Assembly (NCBI GenBank): GCA_016196755.1
Contig: JACPXC010000064.1
Coordinates: forward strand, 1 to 52,955
Direction of reading: 5' to 3'
Origin: Elusimicrobiota bacterium
Lineage (GTDB): Bacteria > Elusimicrobiota > Elusimicrobia > UBA1565
Length of the DNA: 52,955 nt
The position numbers were made by a program, and so were the translations under genes. Under the pieces are notes generated by a model that was not told the DNA's origin, did not search any database, and saw only the letters and a list, made by a program, of their open reading frames with translations. This document shows, in pieces, positions 18,001-42,362 of this stretch. Each line of letters starts with the position of its first letter. Within the stretch, counting starts at the first letter, position 1.

Positions 18001-21000
18001 GGAGACGACGGTCACCGCCTCCGGCGCCGGTACCCCCGGCGTCTTTAACGGCCAGGGCGTGCGCGTGCAGGCCAACGGCGCCTCCACGACCAAGAACATC
18101 CTCCTGCGCCTGCCCGGCGAGTCCTTGGACCCCGGCTCGCCCACCGGCAAGACGGCCGTCCTTCCCAGCGAGCAGGAGGCCGGCTCCACGTTTACCGCCA
18201 CGGCCTACGCCACCGACCAGTTCTTCAACCCCTACGAGCCGCTCCAGCTCCAGACGCCCGCGGTGTGGGTGGAGGCCGGCACGCCCTACGCCCAGACCGG
18301 GACGACCGTGACCCTGGCCCAAGGGTCGACGACCTTCGGGCTCTACCTGCCGGTGGCCTCGACGACGACGCTCATCTCCGCGAAGACCCAGACCGCCACC
18401 TTCGTCGGCAACTCGACGCGCGTGGCGCTCAGCCCGGCGCGCCAGCTCTCCGGGGCCTGGCGCCTGCAGCTGCTTTTGCCCAACATGGTCCAGGACCCCG
18501 GCTCCGGCGCGGGCTTTAAGAACGCGCTCCAGGCGCTGACCGTCGGCTCGACCTCGACGGCGCGCGTCAACCTCATCGACGCGTTCTACAACACGGTCTT
18601 CGGCACGACCACTTTCATCGGCGCGGTGGCTTTCCCGACCGTGCGCCTGGACTTCACCGACGGCAACGTCGCGGCGCGCGGCCTGGTCCCCGCCAGCCAG
18701 TCGTTGATCAACGGCACCCGCCAGTTCTCCTTCCTCCCCGTGACGCGCACCGGCGGGATCCTGCCGCTCCAGCAGATGAGCGCGGTCGACAACGCGGCGT
18801 TCTACAGCTCCGACACGGTCCGCGACATCCCGGTCAACCCCGGCCCGGCCACGAAGCTGCAGTTGATCCTCCCCATAGAGACCGCCGCCGAAGGGTCGCC
18901 CACCGGCAAGACCGGCTCGGCCCGGCTGTTTAGGGCGGGCGACGGCTACCTGGCGACGATCCGCGCCACCGACGACTATTGGAACCTGACCTCGGACGGC
19001 CGCAACGTCGCGCTGTCGGTCTCCGACGTCTATGCCTCGACCCAGCCCGCCATCCCGTTGTTGGCCGGCGAGGTGGCGCTGTCCTTCTCGCCCCGCACGT
19101 CCACGGCGGCGGCGCTCATGACCATCTCGGCCGTGGACGTCGACTCGGTCATCCCCAAGCTGACCACCCACTCCATGACCGGGCTGGGCGTGGATCCGTC
19201 CGGCCTGGCCAAGCTCATCGCCATCATCCCGGGCGAGACCTACGCGCCCGGCAAGCCTCCCTACGACACCGGCACGACGGGTGGGCGTACGATAGACCAG
19301 TCGACCACGGTGCCCGCGGGCACGCCGTTGACCTTCACGGTCCGGGCGGTGGACAGCCAGTGGAATACGGTGGCGGCGAACTTCTCCGTGTCGATGTTCA
19401 ACGACGACCCGGCGGCCGTCGTGCCTACGCCGACCCTGACCCTCGTCGGCGGCGTGACGACCTTCACCTATACGCCGGTGACGGTCGGCGCGCGCACCGC
19501 CGGAGCCGCGGCCGCGGGAGTAGCCTCGAGCACGACCAGCGTCTTCACGGTGGCGGGCTCGCGTCTGTCGCTGCTGGTCCCCGGCGAGACGCCCGACCCC
19601 GGCAACGTGGGGGCCTTGGGCCGCGCGGGGGTCCCGGACGCCAGCGGGGCGCCGGGAGTCCAGCGCTTCACGGCGGGCACGCCCTTCACCGTCACGGTGC
19701 GCTTGACCGACGCCTTGTTCAACCCGATCCCGGCCGGCGTGCCGGTCACGGCGCGCTTCTACTCCAACGACCCCAACGCCGTCCTGCCCGCCGACACCGT
19801 GCTCCCGCTCTCGGGCGAGACGACGATGAGCGTGACGCTGGCCTCGGCCACCGCGCTGGGCGGCGGCAGCCTGGTCTGGGTCCAGCCGGTGGCCAACCCG
19901 AACATCGCGGTCTCCACCGCCAGCAGTCTGCTCGTCGACCCGGGTACGCCGTCGCGGCTCCTGGTCCTGGCTCCCGGCATGACGCCCGCGAAGGGAGCGC
20001 CCGCGGGCTACGCCGGGACGCCGATCGCCACCGCGGCCGGGGCTAACTACCCGATCCAGGTCTTCGTCACCGACTCGCTCTTTAACCCGGTGCTCTGCGC
20101 CGACTACCCGGCGGGTCCGCCGGGCCCGGACTGCATCGAGCCTGGGATCAAGACGACTTTGGGCGACCCGCACGCCCCGAGCGTCCCCGACTACCAGTTG
20201 ACCGGCGGCAGCCGCGCCATCAGCCTGGAGTTCTGGGCCAACACCGTCATCGACCCCGTCGGCGGGCCCTGGACGATCGCGGTCTCCACAGGCGACGGCT
20301 CCGCGCTTTCCTCGATGACCGTGGGCGGCGTGGTGGTCAACCCCGCCGCGCCCTACCAGTTCCAGGTCCTGGTGCCGACCGAGACCGCCGTGGGCGGCTC
20401 CCAGCCCCTGCTCGGCCGCTCGACCTACTCGGCCGTCGCCGAGCTGGCCGGAGCGACGTTCACGATCACCGTGAACCTGGTCGACCGTTTCTACAACCGG
20501 ATGCCGCCGGGCTTCAACTCGACCTTCCGGCTTTCCTCGGACGACCCGAACAACCGGCTGGGCAACTTCGGGAGCTTCACGACCTTCAACGGCCAGAGGG
20601 TGTCGACCGGGGTCTACCTGGTCACCCAGAGCACGGCTGTGGGCTGGGTCATCCGGGCCTCGACGACCACCGGCGACAACATCCTGACCGGGGTGTCGAC
20701 CCGGTTCCGCATCAATCCGTCCACTCCGAGCCACATGCTCGCCATGCTGGGCCCTCAGCAGCAGGCCGACGGGATCGGGGTCACCGGCAACCCGGGGGTG
20801 GAGATCGCCGGCGAGTTCATCACCGTCCGCGTGCTCGCCACCGACCCGGGCTACAACTTCACGCCTACCGTCAACAAGACCGGCATCCGCCTGGTCTCCG
20901 ACGACGGCTTCGCCCAGAGCTCGTGGACCCTGACCATGACCGACGGCGTGGCGGTGGCCTCCATCAGCCTGCGCACCGCGGGCGTGCGCAGCTTCACGCT

Positions 21001-24000
21001 CTCGGACCAGAGCGGCACGCCGCCGCTCTTGGCGGGCGTGGTAACGAGCACCTTCACGATGACGGCGTCCAACCCGACCCGCCTGCGCGTGCTGCTGCCC
21101 ACCCAGTTCGGCGTGGCGGGTTCGACCGGCTCGGGCCGCGAGGGCTCGGTCACGGTCCAGCCGGCCGGCTCCACCGTGACCGTCACCGTGCAGATCACCG
21201 ACGCGTTCTGGAACCTCACGCCCGGCGCCAGCCAGCAGATCCGCCTCACCTCGAGCGACCTGTTCGGCACGCTCACGCCGGCGACCATGACCATCGTCGG
21301 GTCGGGCCTCAGCGACGTGGTCTTCCGGCGCGCCGCCTTCAACACCATCCGCGCCGAGATGCTCTCCGAGCCCCCGGCCTGGGGGCCGACCGTGGCGGCC
21401 GACACCAGCCCGGTGGTCCAGGTGACGGCGGGCCTGGCCAAGAACCTGCTCCTGCTCCTGCCCGGCGAGAGCTTCCAGCCCGGCTCGCCCACCGGCAAGT
21501 CCGGCGTGCCGTCGGCGAATCTGCGCGCGGGCAACTCGTTCCAGGTCACGGTCGGCATCATGGACCAGTTCCTCAACCTGGTGCCGAGCCGCCCTGCCGA
21601 CGTGCGGCTGAAGACGCCTAGCGGGTTCCCGTTCGCTCTCGCCACGACCACCGGCGCCATCGACACGACCGTCGGCTACACGAACCCGCCGCTCCAGGCC
21701 ACCCTGGTGGCGCGCGCCACCTGGCACCAGCTCATCGCGGAGGATTTCCTCTCCTCCGGCCTGCAGGACTCGCCGTTCAGCTCGACCTTCACCGTCCGCC
21801 CGAACTACGCCTACGGTCTCCAGCTCTTGATGCCGGGCGAGAGCAACTCGGCCGGCAACGGGATCTACCCGGCGGGCGGCAGGCAGGGAGTCATCAGCAC
21901 GCAGACCGCGGGGACCCCGTTCTTTGCCACGGTGAACCTCGTCGACCAGTACAACAACATCCAAGACGAGCAGTCCGTGGGGCCCGACGTCTTCGTCGTC
22001 ACCTCGGATCTTTACGACATCAACCCGGCCATCGCCCAGCTCCAGCAGGGCGCGGTGGCCGTCCAGACGTCGCTGATCAGCAAGTCTTCCGTGGCGGTCT
22101 TGTCGGTGACGCCGGATAGCCAGGTCTTAAGCGACGTCTGCGGCGTCTCCGGCAACGTCCCCTGCCTGGCGCAGGCCCCGGCGGCTATCACCCGGCCGTT
22201 CAAGGTGTATGCCTCGACGGCCACCAAACTGCTCATCACCCTGCCGGGCGAACAGCTCACGCCGGGCCTGGGCAAGACCGGCAACCCGGGGCCTTTCACG
22301 ATGACGATGCCGCAGACCGCCTTCCAGGCCACGGTGAACCTGCTCGACGCGTTCAACAACCTCGCCACCGAGCGGACGGGGGGGAACCAGGACTCCAACC
22401 CGGTGGCCGTCATGCCCGAGGTGGCGGTCGCGCTCCCGGCCGACCCCATCGCCACGCCGCCGCCGGCCCAGACCCTGGGCCTCGGCCAGCGCAGCTTCTC
22501 GGTCGTCCCGCTGACCGCCCTGTCGACCTACACGGTGACGGCGGCCACGACGGCCCTCTCGGCGGTCTACTATTCCTCGGCGAGCTCGAGCGCGCTCGAG
22601 GTCCTGCCGGGCCCGGCGCACCACCTGCACTTCACGAACGTCCCGTCGACGGCCGCGGCCGGCGCCAGCATCGGCGTGAGCTTGCTCGCCCACGACGAGT
22701 TCCACAACCTGCTCTCGACGGGACCCAACGTCTACACGAAGTCCGTCCAGCTCTCGGCCGAGGTGCTGGCTCCGCCGCAGAACGCGGAGTTCAACCCGTC
22801 GGTGGCGGTGTTCTTGGCGTCGGACGGCGGGCTCAAGAACATCCCCGGGGCCTTCAAGCTCAAGAAGTCCGGCGCGCGCTGGATCAAGGGCGCCCAGACC
22901 GACGCCGCGCTGGTGATCACCACCGAGCGCTCGCCGTTCTCGACCCAGCCGCTGGTCACGATCCTGCCCGGCTCGCCGGGGGCCGTCACCGTGGAGCCCG
23001 GCCCGACCTCCCAGGTCATCCCGGTGCGCGCCGGCTCGATCCTCAACCCGGGCGTGCAGGCCATCACCGGCCAGTTGGCCGACGCGTTCAACAACCCGGT
23101 GGTGTCTAGCTCGCCGGTCAACATCGAGATCGTCGACGTGGCCGGCGTCCCCGGCAGCCTGGTCTACGATCCCGGCGGCGGGTGGGTCGACATCGGGGCG
23201 TCGACGGTGGTCCTCACCGACGCGAAGGGACGCATCGGCAAGAACGCCGATGTCGACAACCTGAACCTCCCGCTCGGGTACCGGGTGTCGAACATCGCCG
23301 GCCAGTCGGCCAGGATCTGGATCGGGACGAGCGCGGCGCCGGGGAACTTGACGCCCTACGTCCTCAACCAGCGCAACCTCTCCGGGAGCCTTCTGACCAT
23401 CGGCGGCAAGGCCTCCCAGCTGGTCTTCGTGTCGACCACGGCGGCCGCGCCGGTAAGCGACGTGCCCGCGGGCGGCGGCTCCTTCGTCATCCGGCGCCTC
23501 GACGACTTCGGCAATCCCACCGACCAGGACCAGACCGACATCAACCTCTCGCTGGCATCCGGCGAGATCCAGCCCCACACCCAGGCCGGCGTCTCGCAGG
23601 GGACCCCGAACACGATCCTCGGCGACTACGGCTTCATGGAGCCCAACTCGCCGTTCAACTTCATCACCGGCCTGTCGATCCCCGACGGCTTGACCGACGG
23701 GGCCTTCCGTTACCGCGACCGCATGTCGTCCTACGCGGGGGTCTCGCCCGCCGCCAACGAGTCCGTCGGCGGCCGGCCGGGCTACTGGACGCTCAGGATC
23801 GTCCCCACGGCAGTCGACATCAGCTCGCTGAGCTTCGCGATGCGGCTCGACCCCGGGGACCCGGTCAAGCTGGGCTTCGGCAACGTCCCCAACAAGATCG
23901 TGGCCGGCAAGGTCTACGACGTGGGCGGCGTGACCCTGCGCGGCTTCCAGGCCCAGGTCCAGGACAGCTTCTCGAACCCGAGGGCGTCGACCTACCCGAT

Positions 24001-27000
24001 CACGGTGGCCTTGACCGTTCCGTCCCGTCTGGCCTCGCCGCAATTCGACTCCTTCTCGTTCTCGTCCTCCAGCGATATCGCCGGCGGGCTCCCGCCGCTC
24101 TTCCTCAACCCGGTGACGACGGTGACCGTGCCGACCCTGAGCTTCCAGGCCACGTTCTTTTACCTCGATACCCGCGCCTCGGCGAACTACCCGCCCGGCT
24201 GGGCCTACCCGGCGCCCTTCTCGACGGCCCCGGTCATCCAGACCTCCGACGCCGACGGGGTCCTGCAGTCCACGCGCCAATACGTCAACATCATCTCGGA
24301 CACGATCAACCGAGTGGCGGTCATGAGCCTGAGCAGCCCGGGGCTCCTGGCCGGCGCGACCAGCGAGACGCTGATCATGCAGACGCAGGACCGCTTCGGC
24401 AACGCCTCCGCCGTCCAGAGCGGCCAGGAGGACGCCGGCAAGCCCTACGTGACGTTCGTGACCACCTCGAACTCCAAGGGCAACCGGCAGTTCTCGAGCC
24501 CGGACGTCTTCAACTTCACGATCACGACCGGCCTCGCGCGGCTCTATCCGGGCCAGCACACCACGAGCTTCTACCTCATAGACACCCTGGTGGGGCCGAC
24601 CACCTGGGAGATCACCGCGCTGGAGCTCGAGAGCCGCTCCTGGGCGCACACCGTGGCCACCTACACGGTACAGCCCGGGCCGCCGGTGCAGGCGGCGTTC
24701 ACGAGCGTCATGAGGCGCCTCGTCGCCGGCACGACGGTCCAGACCGGGCTCGAGACACAGCTCTCCACCGGCACGGCTATAGAGGTCGCGCTATTCGACC
24801 AGTTCGGCAACCTGACCTCGTCGTCCTGGGCCTTCCACACCATCCTCTTCAACTCCCAGGACTCGCCGACCATGCGCGGCGGCACGGACCCGACGCGCGC
24901 CACAGTCGACGGCAACGACTGGGCCCTCATGGGTCCTTCCGATGCTCCGCTGCCGGTGACGGTCAACCTCAACTCGACCGGCGGACGCTTCTTCGCCTGG
25001 GACACCAAGGTGGGGACCAAGACCCTGCAGGCCGTCGTGGTGCGCCAGGACGGCTTCACGATGCCGACCGTGACGCATCAGATCGAGATCACCCCCAACA
25101 GCGCCGATTACATCACGATCCACCATCCGTTCACGGCCGTCAACCCGCTCAAGGTCAACACCCCGGGCGTGATCGCGCGCCTCCAGGGCCTGCAGACCCT
25201 AGGGGTGGTCCTGCGCGACAAGTTCGGCAACATCGCCTCCGGCCATCCGATCAACGGGCGCTATTTCACGGGTCTGGTGGTGTTCACGACCAACGGCTCG
25301 AGCACCACGGTCAACATCGACGACCTGGAAGACTCCACGACGACCCCGAACTCCCACTTCTTCGACGGCCAGAACGACGCCACCCCCGGCGTGTTCACCG
25401 GCCTCCAGATCCAGGACGCGATCGTGGAGGAACTGCAGATCCGGGCCACCGCGCAGAGCCAGCCGACACTCTACGGCTACACCAAGGACGCCGGCCGGGC
25501 GTTCAACGACCCGCAGTTCACGCCGACCAGCCTGTCGGACGGCAACGTCTTCGTCGCCGGCGTGGTCATCACCCCGACCGACTTAGCACCCGAGAAGGAC
25601 CCCGCCACCGGCTTGGTCAAGCCCTCCAAGGGCGCGGTCGGCCAGGTCCGGCCGGTCATCCGTCAGGGCGACGGCACACCGGCGGCCTCAACACCCGACG
25701 CCCAGAAGCCGGTGGAGATGATCCGCCTGACCGCGCGCGTCCTTCCTTCGAGCGCGACTTTCCTCTATGGCGAGCTGTCCGGCCTCCAGATCCAGAAGAC
25801 CGGCCTGCTCGACCCCGCCCACGTGCAGGAGCTCGGGCTCTGGCTCGATGAGGACAGCGACGGCGCCTTCAACTCGGCGGCCGACGTCTTCATCGCCAGC
25901 GCGACGCTCGACGGCCTGATCTGGTATTTCGGCGATCCGCTGCACGGACAGACGCCGCTCAACGTCAAAGACGCCACGCGCACCTTCATCACCACGCTCT
26001 CCAAGAGCTACTTCCTAGCGCTCCGCATGCACGCTACCGGCTACGCCGACGGCGAGCTGCCCTCGAGCCTGGGCCTGCTCATGCCCAGCCCGTCGTACGT
26101 CCGCCTGTCGACGAACAGCCCGCTGGGCATCGCGTCGAACTCTTTTGCCATCAAGACGGCCACCTCGCCTGTCGAGCGCGAGGCGGCGCGCATCAACGTG
26201 GTCGGCGAGTCGATCGGCGCTTGGTGGAACGCGAAAGACGAGCTCGGGAACCTCCTCGGCCTCTCGAGCTACTCTTACGTCGACCAGGGCACCGACGGCG
26301 TCGGCATGCTCAAGGTCAAGATGTGGACCAGCAACTTCGTCGGCACGCTCGGCAAGATCCGCGTGACCCACAACGGCGACGGCGCGTTCGGCGACGTCCG
26401 GAGCGTGCGCCTCTTCGCGGACACCGGCGACGACGGCGACCCGACGGTCGGCGACGGGGCCTTCCAGCGCACGCGCGACACGGAGCTGACCGACTGCGCG
26501 AGTCCGCCCAAGTTCACCAACCTGACCTCGGAGCTGAGCCTGGCCATCCGGCCGGCCTCGTCCTTGGACTGCAAGGGCCAACTCGCCACCTTCAACGAGG
26601 CCCAGCGCACGATCAGCAACTCGACGATCACCTATTTCGTGGTCTACGACATCGAGGCCGGGGCGACCCCGCTCAAGTTCCACGGGGTGCAGATCTCGGG
26701 TCCCTCGGACGTCGTGCCGCTGGCCGGCAACGGCCTGACCCAGTCCTTCGCCCCGGTGGTGTCGACCAACGTCATCGTGCGTCCGACGGCGGACTTCGCG
26801 GTGGTGGACACGGTCAACAGCGAAGGCTGCCCGCTGCCCGGCGGCGCCTGCGGGCCCTCGGACTTCGTTACCTCGGTCCCCGGCAGCATCGTGCAGGCGG
26901 CCAAGAACGCCCCGGTCATGAAGATGACGATGAAGACCTTCAGCGGCGCGGCCCTGTGGTCGGGGGTCAAGCTCGACCGCTGGATCCACTCGAGCCAGCA

Positions 27001-30000
27001 GGGCGGGGCCATCCGCCTCAACAACGCGGCGACCGACGTCGACGACATCAAGATCTGGTACGACGCCAACGACAACGGCCTGCTCGATACGACGACCGAC
27101 CAGGTGGTGTCGCCGCTCTCCGGCGTCATCCATAAGTTCCAGCACGGCAGGCTGGCGGTGGCGATCAGCTCGAGCGCCCCGTCCCCGGTCGATGTCGTCG
27201 TGGAGAACATGTCCGCCTTCTTCCCCGACGACGATCCGTTCCCGGCCGTCCCCGAGCGCCTGGTCTTCAACGACGGCCAGACCGACGAGGCCCAAAAGGA
27301 GGTCATGCTCTGCACGGCCGTCGACATCGCCTCGAACACCTGGCGCAACTGCCTGCGCGCCCAGGACGGGACGTCGCAGATGAGCTTCTCCTCCAACACC
27401 GTCATCTCGGGCCCCGCGCGCATCCCGCTGCTCGGCTTCGGCGGCGGCCAGACCCTGACCGCGGCCAAGAAGAACTACTTCGTGACCTATGACGTCAATC
27501 CTTTGGCGACCGTGAACTCGGAGTCGAACCTCGGGGTGGCGATCCCGAACACCTTCTACTTCATGATCCAGGCGCCCAAGAACATGGCGAGCACCAACGT
27601 CGGCCTGCCGCCGCTCGGGAACACCCTGTCGCTGGTGACCAACGTCTCGCCGTTTGCCGACGGCGTGGTCGTCCGGGCGTCCAACACGGTCGACCCGTCC
27701 TTCGGGCCCTTCCTCCAGCAGCGCTCCACCGGGTCGGTTTTGACCTTCACGATGGAGACCGGCGTGGCGGACGCGCTCTGGCGCTTCGTGATCGTCCAGG
27801 CCACGGGCACCTCGTCGGCCGTGGGCGCGCACGTCAACGACGTCGAGTTGGTCAGCCTCTGGCGCGACCGGAACAACGACGGCCGCCTCGACCCGGGCCT
27901 AGACGAGCTCATGGGCACCGGCAAGTTCGGCAACGCGGGCAACCCCCAGCTGGCCCGCGTCAACATCTCGACGCCGACCAAGATCTTCACCCCCGCGGCG
28001 GCGCCGATCCCGCAGCGCTTCTTCATAGGCTACCTCATCGGCCGCAACGCCGTCACCAACGACCCCGTCACCCAGGTGGCGCGCACGCTGGGCGCCACTC
28101 TGGTCGACACCGCCTTCCCCCAGAACAACCCGACCGTAGACGAGGCCGGCGCCAACGCGCTCTCGCTGCCCGACGCCTACCTGCCCGCGGGTTCGAACCT
28201 GCCGTTCCCGGGCAAGCTGCGCGCTTTGATCCCGTCCGAGCAGACCATGTTCGTCAACGCCACGCCGCTATTTAGCTCGAGCTCGGGAACCTTCGCCTCC
28301 CCGACCCTCTTGGAGGACCGGATCATCGGGGTGGCGGGCTCCACCGAGGCTTACTGGCTCGTCAGCTCCACGGCCGGCCTTCCGACCGGAGGGGCCACGA
28401 CCTACATCTCGGTGGGCGGGACGGTCACGGCCTCCGGGGACGTGGTCGGCTTCGAGCTGGTCAGCTACGAGGACGTCGGGCAGGTGCTGGTCGGCCCCAA
28501 CTGGTACGACGCCCTGCTCAACGTCAAGCGCGGCACCCTGGGCACCGCCCCGCGGGCGCACTCCTCCGGCGAGATCATCGGACCGATGCGCCTGCAGGGC
28601 GCGCTGGACTCGGCGCTCATGCGCTTCGAGGCCTGGTCGAGCGAGTTCCAGGTCCAGTGGCGCCGCCTCGAGATGCCGTTTAAGACCCCCTCGCCGCTGG
28701 GCGTTCGGGACGCGGACGTCAGGTCCGTCAAGCTCTACAAGCTCGTCGACGGAACGGTCAACGACCGCAGCCGCTTCGAGCCGCTGGCCCCGGCCCAGAA
28801 GCGCGACGTCCTGCTCGGGCAGGGGACGATGGCGGGCGGGCGCGTCGAGCTCGATTTCATCGACGAGACCCTGCTCGGCCAGCCGTTCACCCTGGTCTCG
28901 CCGACCACCGCCCTCTTCATCCTGTCCGTCGACATCGACCAGGCCGCGCGGTTCTCCAACGAGCAGCTGCTGCAGAAGAACGAGGTCCTGCGCCTCTATA
29001 AACCCAAGGACGGCCTCGACAACCTGGGCGACTTCAAGCTCGGTCCCGAGGGCGCCGGCCACGACGTCGTCGTGGTCAACAAGGAGGCGCACACCCCGCC
29101 CTCGCCGATCGTCCCGACGGTCAACACCCTGCACCTGTCGATGCTCTCGATCGCCCCCGACGCGGCCCAGCAGAACCAGCTCTTCGTCCCGGTGGCCAAG
29201 ATCCGCGCGCGCTCCAGCGAGAACACCGTTCGCTGGGAGCGCCTGCGTCTCGACCGCCTCGGCGCGGGCGGCGCCATCGACACCGACATCACCCTGCTGC
29301 GGGTCTGGAAGAACGGCGACGGCGACGACTCGTTCTCCGCCGGCGACCGCGCGACCGACACGGCCGGGAACTTCATCAACCAGATCTCGTTCGGCAACGA
29401 GAACTACGAGACCGGCACCAAGGAGATCGTCTTCAAGACCCCGATCGTCGTCAGCACGACGCCGGCGGACTTCTACGTCACCTACGACTTCTCGCAGTTC
29501 GCCGGCGTGGGGACCCAGCACGCGGTGACGATCGCCAACTCGACCTACGTGATCGTCGAGGTCCCGCACGCCGTCGAGCTGACCACCGAGACCCTGGCGA
29601 CGGTGCGCGTCGACGAGGTGGCGTCGGCGATCACCCTCGGGGTCAACGACGTCATCTTCACGAACTCGGTCGACCAGGTGGGACAGGCCCAATCCAAGGT
29701 GCCTTTCCTGCGGTTGAACCTGAAGGCCGACGTCGGCACCGCGCGCTGGCAGAAGGTCCGCCTCGAGCGCGGCGGCGGCAGCCAGGACCCCGACAAGCTC
29801 TTCGGCCGGAACACGAACGTCAGCTTCGTGCGGATCTGGAAGGACATCAACCAAAACGACAAGCTCGACGCCCCGGACATCAACCTCAACGAGGCCGTGA
29901 CGATGACCCAGGCCCAGGTCCTGGCCTCGGCGGCGACGCCGTTCTCGATGGTGGTCCTCTCCACCGAGGGCTTCCCGGAGAACGGCATCGGCCGGGTCTA

Positions 30001-33703: not shown

Positions 33704-33790
33704 GGGCGATAACGGCAAACTCGGCGTAAGCCGGGGGCGCAAAGCCATGACCCCTGCGTGAGCGGGGGCGTCAGGCTACCGAACTCGATG
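33704..33790 (+). promoter_or_regulatory. Cyclic-di-GMP-I (GEMM-I) riboswitch aptamer
   Basis: The sequence follows the GEMM-I layout. GGCAAAC (33714-33720) is followed by a hairpin capped by a GTAA tetraloop (loop 33726-33729). GGCGCAAAGCC follows, ending at 33746. A second hairpin, CCCCTGC/GCGGGGG, has a GTGA loop (33758-33761), and the 3' element is CAGGCTACCGA (33772-33782). Closing helix P1 is short by eye: CGA 33707-33709 with TCG 33785-33787, so that part is uncertain. The first plausible ATG of the next gene (33788) starts directly after it. In known members this RNA binds c-di-GMP and often controls motility and surface genes. Confidence -1.
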
Positions 33791-35398
33791 GCCAACGGAG
33801 CCTGGGGGGCATCCCCCGAGACACGGCCCGCGGGAGCGCTGAAAAGCGCTCCGGCGGCCGCTTTTTTGCTCGCGGCGCTTCTTTCGCTTCCCGCCATGGG
33901 CGGCGAGAGCGGCGGCCAGCCGGGCGCCTTCCTGCAGTTCGGCGTCGGCGCCCGCGCCCTGGGCATGGGCGGAGCCTTCTTCGCGGTGGCCGACGACGCC
34001 ACGGCCGCCTACTGGAACCCCGCCGGCCTGGCCTACCTGCAGCGCAAGGAGTTGACCACGATGCAGGCCGCGCTCTACGAGCAGACGAACTTCACGTACC
34101 TGGGCTACGCCCACCCCACGACCACCCGGGGCACCTTCGCGCTGGGGATCACCCAGCTGGTCTCGACCGGCTTCGAGAAGGTCAACGCCGTCTTCGACCC
34201 CGGTACCGGCCAAGCCACCAGCATCACCAAGGCCGGCACCTTCTCCGACTCCCAGCGCGCGATCGCCCTCTCTTGGGGCCGCGAGGCCACCGAGAGCACC
34301 TCCTTCGGCCTCTCGATGAAGCAGGTCGCCCGCCAGCTCGACTCATCCTCGGACTCCCACCTTGCCCTTGATATCGCCGCGATGCGCGTCATGGGGCCGA
34401 GCTACCGTCTCGCCATCGGCGTCCAGAACGTCTTCGCCAAGAGCGGCGGCGACACCTCCGACAAGCTGCCCGTCATCCTCAAGCTCGGCAACAGCGTGCG
34501 CGCCTTCAAGGAGCGCCTGATCCTCGGCTTTGACCTGCAGAAGTCGCAGACCGCCGACGTCAACTGGCGCTTCGGCGGAGAGTACTGGGCGGCGCGCTGG
34601 TTCGCCTTCCGCTTCGGCCTCCTGGCCGCCCCGACCATCCAGGAGACCGACTTCGGCTTCGGCCTGCGCTTCCGCCGGGTCCAGCTCGACCTCGCCCAGG
34701 GCATCCACGACCTCGGCGCCTCGACCCGCATGTCGGTGACCTTCCGCTTCGGCCGCTCGCGCGAGGACCGCTCCGAGGACCAGATCAAGGCCCTCATCCA
34801 GCAGGGCTTCGAGGCCTTCCGCGAGGGCGACTTCCAGCTGGCCACCCTGCGCCTCAACCAGGCCCTGGACGCCGCGCCCAACAACAAGCAGGTCAAGGCG
34901 ATGCTGAGCCGCCTGCAGACCGTGGTCGGCTTCGTGCCCCAGGCCCTGGGAGGCGAGGAGTTCCAGACCTACGTACGCAAGGGCGTGATCACCTACGTCG
35001 ACGGCCGCGACATGAAGGGCTCGGTCAACGCCCTCCGCTACGCCTACAACAAGAACCCCAAGGACGAGAAGCTCCTGACCCTCCTCAATCTGGTCGAGCG
35101 CGAGGCCGGCGTCAGCGAGCTGACCCGCCGCATCGACGGTCCGGACACCTTCACCTTCGTCGACCAGAAGCTCTACGACGCCCGCCAGGCCATCTACGAC
35201 GGCAAGTACGATCTGGCCATCCGCCGCTCCCAGGACATCCTCGACCTCGAGCCCGCCAACGTCACCGCCCTCGAGATCATGGGCTCCGCCTTCTTCCTGA
35301 TGGACGAGAAGAGCAAGGCCAAGGCGGTCTGGAAGCGCGTGCTCGAGATCGACCCCAAGAACAAGGTGGTCGCCGAGTTCATCAAGCAGATCCAGTAA
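33788..35398 (+). CDS. PorV/PorQ-family outer-membrane barrel protein with C-terminal TPRs, 536 aa
   Basis: I prefer ATG 33788; the longer frame would begin at a GTG inside the riboswitch's second tetraloop. Residues 20-38 supply a signal-peptide core ('AAAFLLAALLSLP') after a long, Arg/Lys-containing start. Residues 48-80 carry the family signature: 'FLQFGVGARALGMGGAFFAV', then 'ADDATAAYWNPAGLA'. Alternating beta strands continue to about residue 310, then TPR-like helices ('AFREGDFQLATLRLNQALD', 'AKAVWKRVLEIDPKN') run to the end. PorV proteins of type IX secretion sit in the outer membrane and receive cargo with a C-terminal sorting domain; here TPRs, presumably periplasmic, are added. It is the first gene of the riboswitch-controlled run, with a terminator hairpin inside its signal-peptide codons. 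Family assignment is good; the partner is unknown. Confidence -1.
   Translation: MANGAWGASPETRPAGALKSAPAAAFLLAALLSLPAMGGESGGQPGAFLQFGVGARALGMGGAFFAVADDATAAYWNPAGLAYLQRKELTTMQAALYEQTNFTYLGYAHPTTTRGTFALGITQLVSTGFEKVNAVFDPGTGQATSITKAGTFSDSQRAIALSWGREATESTSFGLSMKQVARQLDSSSDSHLALDIAAMRVMGPSYRLAIGVQNVFAKSGGDTSDKLPVILKLGNSVRAFKERLILGFDLQKSQTADVNWRFGGEYWAARWFAFRFGLLAAPTIQETDFGFGLRFRRVQLDLAQGIHDLGASTRMSVTFRFGRSREDRSEDQIKALIQQGFEAFREGDFQLATLRLNQALDAAPNNKQVKAMLSRLQTVVGFVPQALGGEEFQTYVRKGVITYVDGRDMKGSVNALRYAYNKNPKDEKLLTLLNLVEREAGVSELTRRIDGPDTFTFVDQKLYDARQAIYDGKYDLAIRRSQDILDLEPANVTALEIMGSAFFLMDEKSKAKAVWKRVLEIDPKNKVVAEFIKQIQ
33824..33867 (+). terminator. Intrinsic terminator of the c-di-GMP riboswitch, inside the signal-peptide codons
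   Basis: A perfect inner stem GGAGCGCT (33833-33840) / AGCGCTCC (33845-33852) with a GAAA loop is extended by a second stem (33824-33831 with 33854-33860, one mismatch and one bulge). After one C it is followed by six Ts (33862-33867). This is a textbook Rho-independent terminator 34 nt after the aptamer, so it is the likely expression platform. It lies within codons 13-27 of the PorV-like gene if translation starts at 33788. A shorter GGGGG/CCCCC hairpin (33804-33817) lies between the two elements. Confidence -1.
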
Positions 35399-35451: not shown

Positions 35452-37437
35452 ATGACCCGTCACCTGCGACGCTCCTGGCCAGCCCTGGCGCTGGCGGCCG
35501 CCCTGTCGGGCGCCGCCATGGCGCAGATCGACGCCCCGCAGATGACGCTTATCGCCCAGCGCGACGCCATCGCGCAGGCGGCGCGCGGACGGGTCCAGAC
35601 CGAGATCCTCGACCGCCTGCTCGGGGCCGGCAAGGCCTCGGCCTTCGTCGACGTGGAGGTCGAGCTCAAGGCCAGCCGCCGCGAGAACCTGCGCTTCGGC
35701 GCCGGCCAGGCCGAGAAGAACAAGATCAAGGAAGGGGCGGGCTCCAACGCCCTCAAGACCAAGTTCATCCTCCCCGGCGTCCCCCAGCCCAAGAACATCA
35801 TGGACAAGGAGGAGCCGCGCCCCGCCGAGGCGGCGCAGAGTCAGACCGCCCAGCAGACCAAGACCGACCAGGAGCTGATCTTCACTCAGGACCTCGTGGT
35901 CAAGAAGTTCCTGGTCACCATCCTCCACGACGCCGACGTCCTGGCCCAGGGCGACCAGATGAAGGTCCGTGAGCTCGTCCTCGAGGCCCTCAAGGGCTAC
36001 GAGGTGAAGGCCGACGACGTGGTGTTCCGGGCTTTCAAGCACCACAAGGCCGAGAAGGACTGGCTGGGCGACCTGATGGACCCCAAGGTCTACCTGCCGC
36101 TGCTCTACGCCCTGCTCTCGCTCTTGCTCCTGGCTTTTCTTTTCGGGCCGTTCGCGCGCTTTCTCAGGCGTTACGTCGAGGCCCTGGTCCAGAAGCCGGC
36201 CGCCGAGATCAACGTGGAGTCGAACATCACCCCGCCCGAGGACGACGGCAAGGGCGGCAGCGACCTCGAAGAGACGCTCAGGAGCCAGGTGGAGATGCTG
36301 GTGGGGCGCAAGCCGGCCGAGCCGTCGCCGCCGCCCCCGCCGCCCCCGCCCGACGACGACGAAGATGACGAGGAGAGTGCCATGGCGAAGAAGGAGCCGT
36401 TCTCCTACATCAGCGATACCAACCTCAAGAACCTCGCCAACCTCTTCCTCCTGAGGGCCGAGGAGCCTTGGCTCGTGGCGGTGGTGCTGAGCTATCTGCG
36501 CCCCGAGTACGCCCGCCAGGTCCTGACCTCCCTGCCGGTCGAGCTCCAGGCCAAGGTGGCGATGGAGGCCCTCAAGGTCCGCCAGGTCACCCGCGAGCAG
36601 ATAGCCGCCATCGACGCCGACATCAAGGAGAACATCGATTACGTCGTGGGCGGCATCGAGCGGCTCATCCAGATGCTCGAGGAGGCCGACCCGCGCTCGC
36701 GCTCCAACATCCTCGACTACCTCCAGAACGACAAGCCCACCGTCTTCGAGTACGTGCGCAAGAAGATCCTGCTCTTCGAGGACGTGGCGCGCTTCGCGGA
36801 CCGCGAGATGCAGGCCATCGTGCGCGAGCTCAAGACCGACCAGATGGCCCGCGCCCTGCATGGCGCGCCGCCGGAGGTCGCCAACAAGTTCTTCGCCAAC
36901 ATGTCGACCGGCGCGGCCTCGCTCGTCAAGGAGGCGATGGAGTTCCAGAAGGACCTCACGGCCGCTCAGGTCGAGGAGGAGCGCGCCAAGGTCATGGAGC
37001 ACGTGAAGCTCCTCGAGAAGCAGGGGCGCGTCAACATCCGCGGCGCGGAGGCGGGGGGAGGCTTCCACCAGGTCATCGCCACCGAGTCGGTGCGCGGCTC
37101 GCGGCTCAGCCAGCTCACGGGCCCCGCCGCCGCCAAGCCCGCCGAGCCGCCGCCGACGGCGGAGGACCCGGCGCTCGCCCGGCGCTGGTACGAGGCGGGC
37201 GCCCGTTCGCTCGAGGAGGGCGACCTCGACGCCGCGGTCAAGAGCCTGCGCCAGGCCGTCGAGCTCGACTCCCAGCTGGCCGACGCTTATAATTCCCTCG
37301 GACAGGCGCTCTATCAGATGGGGCGCTATTCCGAGGCCATCGTCTTCTACGAGAACTACCTCCGTCTGAGGCCGGACCCCGAGCTCCGCGCCTGGGTGGA
37401 CGGCGTCAAAGCCTCCCAGGCCGGCACAGGAGCATAA
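35452..37437 (+). CDS. FliF-FliG fusion with C-terminal TPR (membrane rotor protein), 661 aa
   Basis: ATG 35452 follows a GGAAGGAAA ribosome site. A signal peptide or N-terminal anchor (residues 1-24) is followed by a FliF-like periplasmic part. Its landmarks are 'RVQTEILDRLLGAGKASAFV' (47-66) and the ring-building beta-alpha unit near 147-196 ('KKFLVTILHD...VRELVLEALKGYEV'). A transmembrane helix spans about 213-240. A Pro/Asp/Glu-rich linker (288-310) leads to FliG middle (about 325-400) and C-terminal domains: 'KKILLFEDVARFADREMQAI' (438-457), 'ALHGAPPEVANKFFANMS' (468-485), ending near 530. A TPR unit fills 573-645. FliF rings 1 and 2 and the FliG N-domain, which normally joins the two proteins, appear to be missing; fusion replaces that contact. 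The FliG C-domain is what MotA pushes on, and MotA/MotB lie three genes downstream. Domain calls are by eye. A weak second promoter (TTGAAA 35407, TAAGCT 35430) may precede it. Confidence -1.
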   Translation: MTRHLRRSWPALALAAALSGAAMAQIDAPQMTLIAQRDAIAQAARGRVQTEILDRLLGAGKASAFVDVEVELKASRRENLRFGAGQAEKNKIKEGAGSNALKTKFILPGVPQPKNIMDKEEPRPAEAAQSQTAQQTKTDQELIFTQDLVVKKFLVTILHDADVLAQGDQMKVRELVLEALKGYEVKADDVVFRAFKHHKAEKDWLGDLMDPKVYLPLLYALLSLLLLAFLFGPFARFLRRYVEALVQKPAAEINVESNITPPEDDGKGGSDLEETLRSQVEMLVGRKPAEPSPPPPPPPPDDDEDDEESAMAKKEPFSYISDTNLKNLANLFLLRAEEPWLVAVVLSYLRPEYARQVLTSLPVELQAKVAMEALKVRQVTREQIAAIDADIKENIDYVVGGIERLIQMLEEADPRSRSNILDYLQNDKPTVFEYVRKKILLFEDVARFADREMQAIVRELKTDQMARALHGAPPEVANKFFANMSTGAASLVKEAMEFQKDLTAAQVEEERAKVMEHVKLLEKQGRVNIRGAEAGGGFHQVIATESVRGSRLSQLTGPAAAKPAEPPPTAEDPALARRWYEAGARSLEEGDLDAAVKSLRQAVELDSQLADAYNSLGQALYQMGRYSEAIVFYENYLRLRPDPELRAWVDGVKASQAGTGA

Positions 37438-37449
37438 CGAGGACCCCCC

Positions 37450-39843
37450 ATGGCCGAACTGCCCCCCGACAGGCCCATCCCGCCGCCGCCGCCCCCCGGG
37501 AAGCGCGCCGTCCCGCCGCCGCCCGGCATGTCGTCGCGTCCCGCGCCCCAGGAGCCGCCGGCCGCCAAGGAGCCTCCTCAGTCCGCGCCTGCCCCCCAGG
37601 CCGGCTATCCCGCGGGCTGGCCGCCCGGCATGCCGATGCCGTGGATGCAGGCGCCTTGGCAGGGGATGCCCCCCGGGATGCCCGCTTATCCGCCCGCCCA
37701 GCCGTCCTGGGCGCCGCCGCCGGCCCCGCCGGTCCAGGCCGGCATGCCCCAGCCTCCGGCGCCGCCGTCCGGGGCCAGCGACGCCGACCGGCGCGTCGCC
37801 GAGCTCGAGCGCCGTCTCCAAGCCGAGCGCGAGAAGGTCCTCCTCGCCAACCTCAAGAGCCAGGAGGAGAAGGTCGTAGCGGCCCGCGTCGAGACCTCTA
37901 TAAAGGAAGTCCAGGAGAAGCTGCGCACCCAGCGCCGGGAGTCCGAGCACGAGGAGTCCCGGCTCAAGCTCGAGGGGCGGGTCCAGGAGCTCGAGAACCG
38001 CCTGGTCCAGGAACGCGAGACCTGGGTCTCGACCCTGCGCACCCAGGTCGGCCAGCGCGAGGCCCAAGACAAGGAGATCGAGAGCCACCTCACCTCGCGC
38101 CTTCAGGAGATGGAGCGCCGCTGGCTCGAGGAGAAGGCGCATTGGCAGCGCGTCATCACCGCCAAAGAGGACGAACTCCGCAAGGCCAAGGAGGCCGCCG
38201 CCGAGCGCGACGAGGCCCGCCATGCCGTCAAGTCCATGGACCAGGAGCTCAAGGCCTCCGAATCGAAGGCGGCCGAGCTCCTGCGCGTTAAAAACGAGCT
38301 CGAGGCGCGCATCGGCTCGGTTCACGAGAAGGAGCGCGAGTATTTCGCGGTCAAAGCTGAGTTCGAGAAGGCCCGGGACCAGGCCCGCCACCTCCAGGAG
38401 CGCTACGACCGCGACATCCAGTCGGCCCGCCTGTCCTCCAAGGAGCGCGAGGACCGCCTGCAGGCCGACTGCGAGCGCCTGCAGAACGACCTTCTGACCG
38501 TCACCCAGCGTCTGCGCCTCCAGCACGACGCCGAGATCCAGCAGGTGAAGACCCACGCCGAGGGCAAGGTGAACGCGGCGCAGGAGGAGGCCGCGCTCGA
38601 GGTCCGGGCCATCGCCGCCCGGCACGAGGCGGCGTCCCGCAAGCTCAAGGACGAGCAGACCGTCGAGCTCGAGCGCAGCCGCGCCCAGGCCGACCAGGCC
38701 CAGGGGGCCTTGGCCCGCATGCGCGCGGTCTGCGCCGCGCTCGAGCGCCAGGCCGGGGCGATGCGCACCGGCGCGCTCGAGGGCCGCAAAGCCAAGGAAG
38801 AGGCCACGCGCCAGCTCGAGCGCTACAAGGGCGAGTTCCTCGTCCTGCAGCGCAAGTGGCAGGACCGCGAGGCCGAGCTCCGCGCCCAGTTGGGCGCCGA
38901 GGCCGGAAAACAGATGGACGCGGAGCGGAGCAAGCTCAAGCTGCGCGCCCAGGAGGAGGTGCAGGCCCGCGTCCTGCGCGTCCAGCAGCAGCTGCGCGCC
39001 GAGCTCGAGGTCGAGTACGCCGAAAAGGAGCGCCTGCTGCGGGCCACGGCCGAGAAGGCCTTGGCCGAGAAGGCGCGCGAGGTGGAGGCCGAAGCCGCCC
39101 AGGCCCGGCGCCTGCTGGAGGCCGAGCTGGACCGGCGCACCGAGGAAGGCCGGGGAAAGGAGGCCCGCATCCACGAGCTCCTCGCCCAGCGCGACGCCGA
39201 GTTGGCCGCGCTGCGCTCCCAGAGCGACGAGTCGCGCGGACGGCTCACGCGCGAGGAGAAGGCGCGCGAAGAGGACCGCGCGGCTCGGCTGGCCTTCGAG
39301 AAGGAGCTCATCTCCGAGAAGGCCCGGCTCACGGTGCTCCAGGGCTCCCTGGAGGAGGCGCGCCAGCGAGCGCTGCGCGACGAGGAGCGCCAGAGGGCCG
39401 TCACCGCCGAGCGCGACACCATCATGCGCGAGCGCGCCGCGGCCGAGGGCAAGGGCGCCTCGCTCTCGCGCGAGCTCGAGGCCGCGCGGACCATACTCGC
39501 CGAGGCGGCCGACGTCAAGGCCAGGCTCGAGGCGGCGCTCGATGAATCCCGCGCCGAGGCCAAAAAGCTCGAGGAGAAGCGCAGGTCCGACGAGGAGGTC
39601 GCCAAGCGCAAGCTCGAGATCCTGCGCCGCGAGGCCGAGGCCCGGGCCAGCGCCCTGGAGGCCGAGCGCGACGCCGCGTTGGCCGCCGCGGCGGCCGGCC
39701 GGCGCGAGGCCGACGAGCGGGTTCGCGAGCTCGAGGTCCAGCTCAGCCCGCCGGAGGGCGCCGGGGGCATGAAGGGGGCCATCTCCAAGCTCTTCGGGAA
39801 GAAAGACCCGGGCGACCTGCCGCCGCCTCCAGGGACCCTGTGA
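37450..39843 (+). CDS. Long cytoplasmic coiled-coil protein with proline-rich N-terminus, 797 aa
   Basis: ATG 37450 lies 12 nt after the FliF-FliG stop. Residues 1-110 are rich in Pro, Met, Trp and Gly ('PPPPPPGKRAVPPPPGM', 'PPGMPMPWMQAPWQGMPP') and are probably disordered. From about 113 to 770 the sequence is almost pure Glu/Arg/Lys/Ala/Leu heptads with no signal peptide or membrane helix, so it should form a very long coiled-coil rod. The end is short and basic, with Pro ('AISKLFGKKDPGDLPPPPG'). I recognise no named family. Its place between a rotor protein and FlbD/MotAB suggests a scaffold or polarity/force-transmission element of the motor. Composition alone makes database hits to unrelated coiled coils likely. 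Confidence -1.
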   Translation: MAELPPDRPIPPPPPPGKRAVPPPPGMSSRPAPQEPPAAKEPPQSAPAPQAGYPAGWPPGMPMPWMQAPWQGMPPGMPAYPPAQPSWAPPPAPPVQAGMPQPPAPPSGASDADRRVAELERRLQAEREKVLLANLKSQEEKVVAARVETSIKEVQEKLRTQRRESEHEESRLKLEGRVQELENRLVQERETWVSTLRTQVGQREAQDKEIESHLTSRLQEMERRWLEEKAHWQRVITAKEDELRKAKEAAAERDEARHAVKSMDQELKASESKAAELLRVKNELEARIGSVHEKEREYFAVKAEFEKARDQARHLQERYDRDIQSARLSSKEREDRLQADCERLQNDLLTVTQRLRLQHDAEIQQVKTHAEGKVNAAQEEAALEVRAIAARHEAASRKLKDEQTVELERSRAQADQAQGALARMRAVCAALERQAGAMRTGALEGRKAKEEATRQLERYKGEFLVLQRKWQDREAELRAQLGAEAGKQMDAERSKLKLRAQEEVQARVLRVQQQLRAELEVEYAEKERLLRATAEKALAEKAREVEAEAAQARRLLEAELDRRTEEGRGKEARIHELLAQRDAELAALRSQSDESRGRLTREEKAREEDRAARLAFEKELISEKARLTVLQGSLEEARQRALRDEERQRAVTAERDTIMRERAAAEGKGASLSRELEAARTILAEAADVKARLEAALDESRAEAKKLEEKRRSDEEVAKRKLEILRREAEARASALEAERDAALAAAAAGRREADERVRELEVQLSPPEGAGGMKGAISKLFGKKDPGDLPPPPGTL

Positions 39844-40083: not shown

Positions 40084-40932
40084 ATGGACATCGGGACAGT
40101 GATGGGCATCCTCGTGTTCATCGGCCTGATGATCGGTTCCATCTGGCATGCCGAGGGCGTGGCGGGCTTTAAACCCTTCATCAACATGGAGGCGCTGCTC
40201 ATGGTCATGGGCGGCACCTTCTGCGCGACGCTCGTCAACTATCCTCTAAAGCAGGTCATCGGCGTCGGACGCATCACCCGCAAGGTCCTGTTCCAGGCCG
40301 AGGAGAACACCGCGGGCATCGTCGTCACCTTCGTGGCGCTCGCCAAGAAGGCCAAGCAGGAAGGCTTCCTGGCCCTCGACCAGGACGTCAACCGTCTGAG
40401 CGACGACTTCATGAAGCGCGGCCTCCAGATGGTCATCGACGGCCAGGACCAGGAGTTCATCCGCAACATGCTGGAGACCGAACTCGGGTTCGTGCGCGAG
40501 CGCCATAAGGTCGGCCAGGAGATCTTCAACGCCCTGGGCACCTACTCGCCCGCCTTCGGCATCATCGGCACCGTCCTCGGCATGGTCATGATGCTCAACT
40601 CGATCGACGACGTCGCCGCCGTGCCGCGCCGGATGGCCCTGGCCCTGGCCGCGGCGTTCTACGGCCTGGGCAGCGGCTACCTCATCTTCCTGCCGATGGG
40701 CGGCAAGCTGCGCCGGCGCTCCGAGGACGAGCTCCTGGTCAAGGAGATCGTCATCCGCGGCGTCCTGCTTTTGCAGAGCGGCGCGGCGCCCAGCGTGGTC
40801 GAAGCCAACCTCAAGGCCTATCTGGAGCCGGCCGAGCGGCTCCTGGTCAAGGGGCCCGAGGAGCCGGGTCCCGAGACCCCGGCGGGTCCCGCGCCGACCC
40901 CCGGGCCTTCCGGCCCCGCGCCGAGGAAGTAG
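40084..40932 (+). CDS. motA: MotA-type stator subunit, 282 aa
   Basis: ATG 40084 lies 16 nt after flbD. The protein has the MotA layout: two N-terminal membrane helices ('MDIGTVMGILVFIGLMIGSI' and 'INMEALLMVMGGTFCATLV'), a large cytoplasmic loop and two C-terminal helices. The first of these contains 'TYSPAFGIIGTVLGMVMML', with the conserved Pro near the ion channel. 'FVRERHKVGQEIFNALG' supplies the charged loop that meets FliG. It forms a ring with a dimer of MotB and converts ion flow into torque. About 30 residues of Pro/Gly-rich tail are unusual. Spacing with motB (6 nt) indicates co-translation. Confidence -1.
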   Translation: MDIGTVMGILVFIGLMIGSIWHAEGVAGFKPFINMEALLMVMGGTFCATLVNYPLKQVIGVGRITRKVLFQAEENTAGIVVTFVALAKKAKQEGFLALDQDVNRLSDDFMKRGLQMVIDGQDQEFIRNMLETELGFVRERHKVGQEIFNALGTYSPAFGIIGTVLGMVMMLNSIDDVAAVPRRMALALAAAFYGLGSGYLIFLPMGGKLRRRSEDELLVKEIVIRGVLLLQSGAAPSVVEANLKAYLEPAERLLVKGPEEPGPETPAGPAPTPGPSGPAPRK

Positions 40933-40938
40933 GCCCCG

Positions 40939-41664
40939 ATGCCCATCCGCCCGCCCCGGGGGTTCATCTCCGAGAGCGACCCCCACGTCTGCATGATCGG
41001 GCATCCGGCTCCCGCCTGGCTGGTCAACTACGCCGACCTCATGACCGAGCTGGTCTGCTTCTTCGTCATCCTCTACGCCCTCTCCGCGGCGCTCAACAAG
41101 GACGTCCAGAACGCCCAACAGGAGATCAAAGAGATGATGGACAAGGGAAAGATGGCCGGCTCCGTCACCGTAGACAAGGAAGGCCTAAAGGTCTCTTTCG
41201 AGGAGCAGGGGAAGATGTCCCAGTTCGAGAGCGGATTTGCCGAGCTGACCCCGGGCATGAAGGAGATCATCGACAAGGTGGCGCCCCAGCTCAAGGTCCT
41301 GGCCGACAAGGGCAACGAGGTCATCGTCGAGGGACACACCGACGGCGTGCCGATCCACAACGACTACTTCTGGTCCAACTGGGAGCTCTCCAGCGCCCGG
41401 GCCACCACCGTCGTCGAGTACCTGATCCGCGAGAAGGGCTTCCCGCCGGGCTGTGTCGCCGCCATGGGCTACGGCGACGCGCGCCCCCTGGCCGCCAACG
41501 ACACGCCGGAGAACAAGGCCCGCAACCGCCGGGTGGTCTTCTTCGTGAAGAACCCGCCGATGAAGAAGAACCGCTGCGACGCCTCGCCGCCGGGCGCGCT
41601 CCCCGCGCCCCGCCCGCCCGCCCCGGGTGCCAAGCCCGGCACGGGGCAGGAGGCCTCGGGATGA
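40939..41664 (+). CDS. motB: MotB-type stator subunit with OmpA-like peptidoglycan-binding domain, 241 aa
   Basis: ATG 40939 is 6 nt after motA. One membrane helix ('WLVNYADLMTELVCFFVILY', residues 27-46) holds the ion-binding Asp-33 of the 'YAD(L/M)MT' motif. A plug-like helix follows. The OmpA/MotB domain has 'VIVEGHTDGVPI', 'NWELSSARATTV' and 'NRRVVFFV', which anchor it to peptidoglycan. A Pro-rich tail ends the protein. The Cys-Phe-Phe after the Asp recalls sodium-type PomB/MotS more than the classical proton type, a weak hint only. The stop overlaps the next start (ATGA). Confidence -1.
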   Translation: MPIRPPRGFISESDPHVCMIGHPAPAWLVNYADLMTELVCFFVILYALSAALNKDVQNAQQEIKEMMDKGKMAGSVTVDKEGLKVSFEEQGKMSQFESGFAELTPGMKEIIDKVAPQLKVLADKGNEVIVEGHTDGVPIHNDYFWSNWELSSARATTVVEYLIREKGFPPGCVAAMGYGDARPLAANDTPENKARNRRVVFFVKNPPMKKNRCDASPPGALPAPRPPAPGAKPGTGQEASG

Positions 41665-42362
41665 GGCTGCCCGTCCGTGCCGCCGCCGCCGCCTTGCTCG
41701 CGACCATCGGCTGTTCGAGCCTGCAGGTCGGCGGGCAGAAGAAGAAGGTGGTCCTCAAGGATTTCGCCGAAGGGCGCGTCGTCCAGGTGGCCATCACCGA
41801 CCGCCTGACCGGGGCCAAGGAGATGCTCTTCGTCTCTATGCCCAAGAAGTCGCTGTTCCTCGAGGGCTACGTCCAGGGCCTCGTGGTCGACTACGATGAC
41901 AACCCCATCCAGGGCGTGGTCGTGCGCGCCGTGGCCAAGGGCGAGCAGCAGTTCGTCGACAAGGGCGAGGCGGCCTTCCAGACCTCGTCGTTTGACGCCG
42001 GCGTCAGCGACTCCAACGGCATCTACCGCATCCGCTTCAGCCTCCCCATCCTCAAGAACCTCGTCGACATCCGCGGCGAGCTGCTCTACAACCCGGGCTG
42101 GGAGCAGGAGCGCGACAACCTCGGGAAGGCCTACCGCCCGCAGGCCGAGCGCTCCCCGTTCCGCCTGCACTTCGACATGAAAGAGGGCATGCTGGTCTTC
42201 TCGGAGGGCGTGCAGAAGATCATCGTGGCCGGGGTCGAGGGCGCCAAAGGCTCGAAGGCCAAGGGCCGCGCGCTGCCGGGCGCCCAGCCCGCCGGCGACG
42301 AGAAGCAGCCCGAGAAGCCGCAGGCCGAAGAGGACCTGTTCAAGGGGTTCGGTTTCCAGTGA
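41661..42362 (+). CDS. Lipoprotein with carboxypeptidase-regulatory-like domain, 233 aa
   Basis: It starts at ATG 41661, overlapping the motB stop by 4 bp. Residues 1-18 form a lipoprotein signal with lipobox 'ATIGC' (Cys-18). The part from about 70 to 130, 'GYVQGLVVDYDDNPIQGVVV' then 'AGVSDSNGIYRIRF', matches the CarboxypepD_reg (transthyretin-like) beta-sandwich often fused to outer-membrane proteins. The tail is Lys/Pro/Glu-rich and ends 'LFKGFGFQ'. It is probably attached to a membrane on the periplasmic side and is the last gene that clearly belongs to the motor group. Its exact role is not recognised. Confidence -1.
   Translation: MRLPVRAAAAALLATIGCSSLQVGGQKKKVVLKDFAEGRVVQVAITDRLTGAKEMLFVSMPKKSLFLEGYVQGLVVDYDDNPIQGVVVRAVAKGEQQFVDKGEAAFQTSSFDAGVSDSNGIYRIRFSLPILKNLVDIRGELLYNPGWEQERDNLGKAYRPQAERSPFRLHFDMKEGMLVFSEGVQKIIVAGVEGAKGSKAKGRALPGAQPAGDEKQPEKPQAEEDLFKGFGFQ

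Follow-up and report, generated by a model that had tools for sequence, protein, structure and literature searches.

To our knowledge, FliG-type rotors are known only from flagella; we know of no such rotor in GldLM or type IX systems, and of no FliF/FliG rotor in the AglRQS system of Myxococcus. The latter is a gliding motor in which a MotAB-related stator (AglRS) is used outside flagella (PMC12505986). A natural fusion of FliF and FliG has been described in the Chlamydiaceae, bacteria that lack flagella (Bergeron 2016, PMC4768692). In the Chlamydiaceae fusion, the SpoIIIAG-like domain (RBM3) is absent, the SctJ domain is incomplete, and FliG is represented by its middle domain only; a relation to the injectisome has been suggested (PMC4768692). 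Among engineered fusions, a single FliF-FliG chain in Salmonella forms an MS-ring and a working rotor (cited in PMC4768692), and an engineered Vibrio FliFG forms an MS-ring (PMC11481574). According to a 2025 survey, 11% of non-motile species have rotor proteins but no filament; whether these rotor parts serve another purpose was not resolved there (PMC12199754).

Here, we describe a locus of an Elusimicrobiota bacterium that encodes a FliF-FliG-TPR fusion protein of 661 residues (35452..37437, + strand) within the stretch of 52,955 nucleotides that was analyzed (hereafter, the window).

Anatomy of the fusion protein

The open reading frame has no internal stops, and its product comprises, from the N- to the C-terminus, a signal peptide, a FliF RBM3/collar-type domain, one membrane helix, an acidic/proline linker, the middle and C-terminal domains of FliG, and a TPR domain. 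A first-pass annotation had proposed that a shortened FliF is joined to FliG in one chain, that FliF rings 1 and 2 and the FliG N-domain are absent, and that a TPR domain is added at the C-terminus. Profile searches, PDB searches, and AlphaFold models compared by Foldseek bear this out and, as far as sequence and structure prediction can establish it, the protein is a natural fusion with this anatomy.

The FliG middle and C-terminal torque domains occupy residues 315-530 (36394..37041, +). Pfam matches to FliG_M at residues 333-396 (1e-11) and to FliG_C at residues 424-529 (1.9e-23) were obtained, the latter falling within the region to which FliG_C had been assigned (residues 400-530), and a PDB sequence search matched the fusion to Thermotoga maritima FliG (1lkv; E 9.4e-34 to 4.6e-33). 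The predicted structure of this part matched 1qc7 and 8ucs_H (FliG bound to MotAB), with an rmsd of 1.1-1.2 Å over 88-89 columns. FliG_C and FliG_M were both matched by all 27 full-length homologs, which argues that the fusion is not due to chance. Fusion residues 310-530 align to positions 105-329 of the TIGR00207 FliG model, and because the alignment starts at model position 105, FliG_N is inferred to be missing; the only FliG_N match in the fusion was below threshold and overlapped FliG_M/C. In place of FliG_N and the FliF C-terminus is a disordered linker of Pro, Asp, and Glu (residues 250-312; 36199..36387, +), identified by low pLDDT and by the position at which the FliG model match begins.

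The N-terminus of the fusion is signal-peptide-like and is followed by a domain of about 165 residues (residues 30-194; 35539..36033, +), predicted to be periplasmic, and then by one membrane helix that runs on into the cytoplasm (residues 211-247; 36082..36192, +), assigned from AlphaFold secondary structure and a hydrophobic stretch of sequence. The Pfam scan yielded no FliF match in the single window protein, but YscJ_FliF_C was matched by 12 of 27 homologs (best 7.2e-6). Residues 25-250 were modelled with AlphaFold on the basis of 39 sequences; the predicted elements follow the ring-building arrangement alpha-beta-(disordered insert)-beta-alpha-beta, and a long TM helix comes after them. 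The best 18 Foldseek matches of the N-terminal half in the PDB were all FliF MS-rings (E 3.6e-8 to 1e-4, probability 1.00) and were mostly RBM3/collar structures. A profile of the fusion family also matches, at E 8e-4, the RBM3 domain in the true flagellar FliF that a flagellated member of the Elusimicrobiota encodes. RBM1, RBM2, and the N-terminal TM helix of FliF were not found; this is judged by length (approximately 190 residues precede the TM helix) and by the model, which contains a single RBM.

The fusion ends in a TPR domain at residues 573-658 (37168..37425, +), which is supported by Pfam (profile match at residues 587-646), AlphaFold, and Foldseek. In contrast to the Chlamydiaceae fusion, the Elusimicrobiota fusion keeps RBM3 and FliG_C and is accompanied by a MotAB stator. 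It also differs from laboratory FliF-FliG fusions, which are engineered, full-length, and placed inside a normal flagellum.

Several residues that bear on switching or torque have changed. In E. coli numbering (numbering and contact pairs partly after PMC12505986), the position of FliG R281 is G or N in the fusion and R297 is lost, whereas the acidic position 288 is kept (E494 in the fusion) and is invariant in type A fusions (defined below). In the cassette MotA, E98 is often or partly Q and the basic residue at position 90 is kept. That R281 is lost while its partner, MotA E98, is relaxed looks like a joint change, although this is an inference from aligned residues. The FliM-binding EHPQ motif is changed to E-x-P-x, a decay that fits the lack of FliM described below.

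Rotor and stator genes across the Elusimicrobiota

The cassette in the window has the gene order giant protein, PorV-TPR, FliF-FliG-TPR, coiled coil, MotA, MotB, and small exported protein, and is followed by ordinary genes (cysteine desulfurase, MnmA, and D-Ala-D-Ala ligase). The MotA stator subunit (40084..40932, +) was identified by PF01618 (2.8e-27) and by PDB matches to MotA (6ysf/8ucs, E 1.3e-49). MotB (40939..41664, +), identified by profiles and sequence, has the ion-binding Asp (WLVNYADLMT) and an OmpA peptidoglycan-binding domain; this Asp is kept in the window and in nearly all type A cassettes. Next is a small predicted exported protein, possibly a lipoprotein (41661..42362, +), that has a weak CarboxypepD_reg match and is a conserved neighbor of MotB in relatives.

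To place this cassette in its phylum, we sampled 150 Elusimicrobiota genomes, leaving out TPR-only matches by hand and scoring no more than eight candidates in each genome; fusion counts may consequently be low. The fusion was detected in 47 of the 150 genomes, with at least about 120 copies among the matches listed. With the window MotA as query, MotA was present in all 47 fusion genomes and absent from 99 of the 103 others (Fisher 1e-34), and one of the four fusion-less genomes with MotA is a flagellate. Because the sampled genomes share ancestry, they are less independent than this p-value implies. Among the matches listed, copy numbers of fusion and MotA were equal in 37 of 51 genomes (Spearman 0.90) and MotA was located within 10 kb of 88 of 120 fusion copies. 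The genome from which the window derives encodes five fusions that pair one to one with five MotA, with three other MotA_ExbB members elsewhere, and CP096137.1, the only closed Elusimicrobiota genome, encodes a single fusion that lies about 3 kb from MotA. The type A MotA is on a different contig from the fusion in Endomicrobia-type lineages and in one further family. The possibility that MotA presence is an ExbB/TolQ artefact was rejected on the basis of the window MotA as query and of gene position.

A pattern-based scan of 84,980 species with a 12-row alignment as query, which is not very sensitive, recovered 75 loci, and every record that named a lineage was from the Elusimicrobiota or its sub-groups.

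Genes for the flagellar export gate and switch were largely missing. FlhA was not detected in the window's own genome and was detected in one of the 150 phylum genomes (controls positive); FliM/FliN was likewise not detected in its own genome, and FliMN_C was detected in one of 150. The lone flagellate in the sample (G032:C2:104000-143800; L188, L189) encodes FlhA, FliM/FliN, separate fliF and fliG, and MotA/MotB, and no fusion. As judged from gene content, many non-flagellated Elusimicrobiota carry one to five sets of rotor and MotA/MotB genes, usually beside genes for outer membrane and giant proteins; at this same level of evidence the stator is present, the genes are linked, and FlhA and FliM/FliN are absent.

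Trees of FliG and MotA (quick search, SH-aLRT only) give the same cassette types A, B, C, and D. Type A is that of the window and bears the TPR, whereas type B is without a TPR and often has two MotB genes. A PorV-TPR gene (full-length PorV) lies beside the fusion in 27/27 type A, 5/5 type C, 3/3 type D, and 7/17 type B cassettes. The two MotB genes of type B are adjacent (e.g., L146:10692-12084 and L152:6730-8107, within the range L146-L161), and in some cassettes the second MotB is without the ion-binding Asp (YGNLMT or YSSMMT). These paired genes suggest a putative heterodimeric MotB with one ion site.

Directly 3' of the fusion in the window is a gene for a cytoplasmic coiled-coil protein of 797 residues with a Pro-rich N-terminus and no TM helix (37450..39843, +), recognized by its sequence and by its conserved position 3' of type A fusions; profile scans returned no family match. 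A large coiled-coil gene directly follows all 27 TPR-bearing (type A) fusions, as compared to 2 of 25 TPR-less fusions of other types. However, the 27 TPR-bearing fusions form one clade and the linkage may thus reflect a single event. The first-pass suggestion that the TPR is a docking site for the coiled-coil protein is therefore supported, but not proven, by gene linkage and has no interaction data behind it; in type A, we infer that the coiled-coil protein encoded downstream is probably bound by this TPR on the cytoplasmic side. The alternative raised there, docking of a replacement for the FliM/FliN switch, is hypothetical. Endomicrobia-type cassettes encode an extra coiled-coil protein of 1,500-2,100 residues, placed after the fusion and before the usual coiled-coil gene (L048:2565-8876, L058:10664-16228, L049:10804-15612). 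In CP096137.1 (L081, about 2737980-2740005), the TPR part is in a different frame from the FliG part, possibly due to a frameshift or sequencing error.

The giant surface protein and the possible load of the proposed motor

Upstream of the fusion is a gene for a giant surface protein of at least 10,886 codons (2..32662, +), the 5' end of which is cut by the contig end; in relatives, homologous giant genes are likewise located 5' of PorV/FliF-FliG. The protein has bacterial Ig-like and fn3-type domains, with Big_13, Big_3_2, and fn3 just under cut-off. Its C-terminal sorting tail (32408..32602, +) is FlgD_ig / T9SS type A-like (FlgD_ig 1.1e-5; YPNPF ... WDG motifs), scoring 21.1 bits against TIGR04183 (just under the cut-off of 23) and matching the C-terminus of PorU (1.5e-8). 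Between the giant gene and the fusion lies a gene for a PorV/PorQ-family outer membrane barrel with a C-terminal TPR domain (TPR_19) predicted to be periplasmic (33758..35398, +), with 102.5 bits against a cut-off of 90 for NF033709 PorV_fam. The window's own genome encodes 12 sorting-tail proteins over cut-off, and its giants that adjoin cassettes bear T9SS-like tails. That genome also holds five or more additional giant ORFs, 5,700-9,000 codons long and equipped with sorting tails (contigs C44, C38, C33, C37, and C14), three of which share a contig with a motor cassette.

A distant SprA/Sov homolog of 1850 residues is also encoded in this genome (L178:6483-12035, G000:C22; NCBIfam, 144 bits, E 3.3e-42, below the curated cut-off of 200), and a PDB sequence search with it returned no match. 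Across the phylum sample, the only genomes without SprA/Sov-like matches belong to a single family, in which genomes are mostly small; this is indicative of a putative type IX-like translocon in Elusimicrobiota. A search for GldM yielded no match in the 150 genomes, and the positive controls were likewise without a match.

We propose that many copies of the fusion would assemble into an inner-membrane ring via the FliF RBM3/collar domain, with the FliG torque domain of each copy extending into the cytoplasm. Since FliF and FliG are one chain, FliG_N would not be needed to hold FliG on FliF. The cassette MotA/MotB would act as the stator, clamped to peptidoglycan by the OmpA domain of MotB, and would turn the ring as in the flagellar motor. 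With no export gate and no FliM/FliN switch, no filament is expected. The most likely output would be the PorV-TPR encoded upstream. This protein, its TPR on the periplasmic side, would hold a giant adhesin that had been exported by a type IX-like route, and the giant would be moved or rotated in the manner of adhesin-based gliding. We hold the pairing of rotor and stator in a non-flagellar, ion-driven rotary motor with high confidence, and it is as firm as genomics alone allows, although its function is inferred and no experiment has been conducted. That the giant and PorV are the load of this motor is an inference that could go either way. The connection from rotor to PorV and giant consists of gene adjacency only, with no predicted physical link, and our literature search found no report of gliding in Elusimicrobiota. 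Taken as a whole, the reading of the fusion as the rotor of an ion-driven rotary machine that works without a flagellum and moves an outer membrane-anchored giant adhesin is one toward which we lean slightly. Counting against it are the change to part of the flagellar torque contact (R281, R297, and MotA E98), the location of the type A MotA on another contig in some lineages, and the frequent lack of a nearby full-length PorV in type B cassettes.

The rotor and stator might instead power the passage of the giant protein across the outer membrane, the role that GldLM/PorLM have in type IX secretion, rather than move it afterwards. The cassettes do hold PorV and type IX-like sorting tails, the genome has the SprA/Sov homolog, and in Flavobacterium GldLM drives both secretion and SprB motion (PMC8986121). 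However, SprA homologs were identified in 129 of 150 genomes, most of them without fusion or MotA, suggesting that secretion there proceeds without this motor, which is then no general secretion component. One motor per giant, as in the window's own genome, would also be redundant for a shared translocon, and many loci in that genome encode T9SS-tail proteins without a cassette. Secretion thus remains a possible but unlikely primary role. The device could alternatively rotate across the envelope against some other load, such as outer membrane/peptidoglycan force, a TPR-driven coiled-coil cytoskeleton, or an attack/attachment device, with the giant and PorV being mere neighbors. Type B cassettes, which are often without a nearby giant or full PorV, fit this idea, as does the strict linkage of TPR and coiled-coil genes in type A, which points to an elaborated cytoplasmic side. 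We nevertheless regard it as improbable, given that PorV-TPR lies beside all 27 type A and all 8 type C/D fusions in distant families, which is hard to explain as mere neighborhood.

It is also conceivable that the cassettes are remnants of a lost flagellum that are non-functional or have a static structural role, a notion compatible with the single flagellate among 150 sampled genomes and with changes to the EHPQ motif and some torque residues. Yet the fusion is intact, conserved, and present in up to five copies with a stator always in the genome, copy numbers and trees of rotor and stator match, and the MotB Asp is conserved. We rejected this explanation on copy number and conservation and grant it next to no credence.

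Relation to known machines and significance

The Elusimicrobiota system, with its putative rotor and adhesin load, shares with the flagellar motor the RBM3/collar ring builder, the FliG middle and C-terminal domains, and MotA/MotB with the ion-binding Asp and OmpA anchor, and the MotAB-FliG complex 8ucs is among the closest matches of both stator and FliG. It differs in that it is without FliF RBM1-2 and the first TM helix, FliG_N, FliM/FliN, and FlhA, and hence without an export gate and filament; it also joins FliF and FliG in a single chain, has an added TPR, and is linked in its genes to PorV and a giant protein. With Bacteroidota GldLM/SprB gliding-type IX (PMC8986121) it shares an ion-driven motor, a PorV-family protein, and a surface adhesin with a sorting tail, a likeness that we regard as functional analogy. 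By analogy, it would work like the core of the flagellar motor, and its output would perhaps resemble the gliding in which GldLM drives SprB. Because FlhA, FliM/FliN, and FliG_N were not found, and because no FliG-type rotor is known to us from type IX, it is a member of neither the flagellum nor the type IX system. The component parts are known, whereas the assembled system matches no known kind. No earlier description of it was found in the literature searched, which did not cover preprints or the main Elusimicrobia genome paper, and a prior description is thus not excluded.

Whether these cassettes represent a new class of trans-envelope rotary machine, in which a flagellar-type rotor and stator without switch, export gate, or filament would drive a PorV complex with a giant adhesin that arrives by a type IX-like route (one motor per giant, up to five per genome), is in our estimation evenly balanced. 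The cassettes provide a candidate answer to the question left by the survey of filament-less rotor proteins, in that stator and rotor have been kept together, multiplied, and diversified over long evolutionary time without a flagellum. They also offer a natural minimal rotor (RBM3-TM-FliG_MC) with which to probe the requirements for generating torque, and a role that can be put to the test for part of the giant genes in Elusimicrobiota. If the proposed machine is real, it would add a third way in which bacteria put ion-driven rotation to use at their surface, next to flagella and gliding of the GldLM type.
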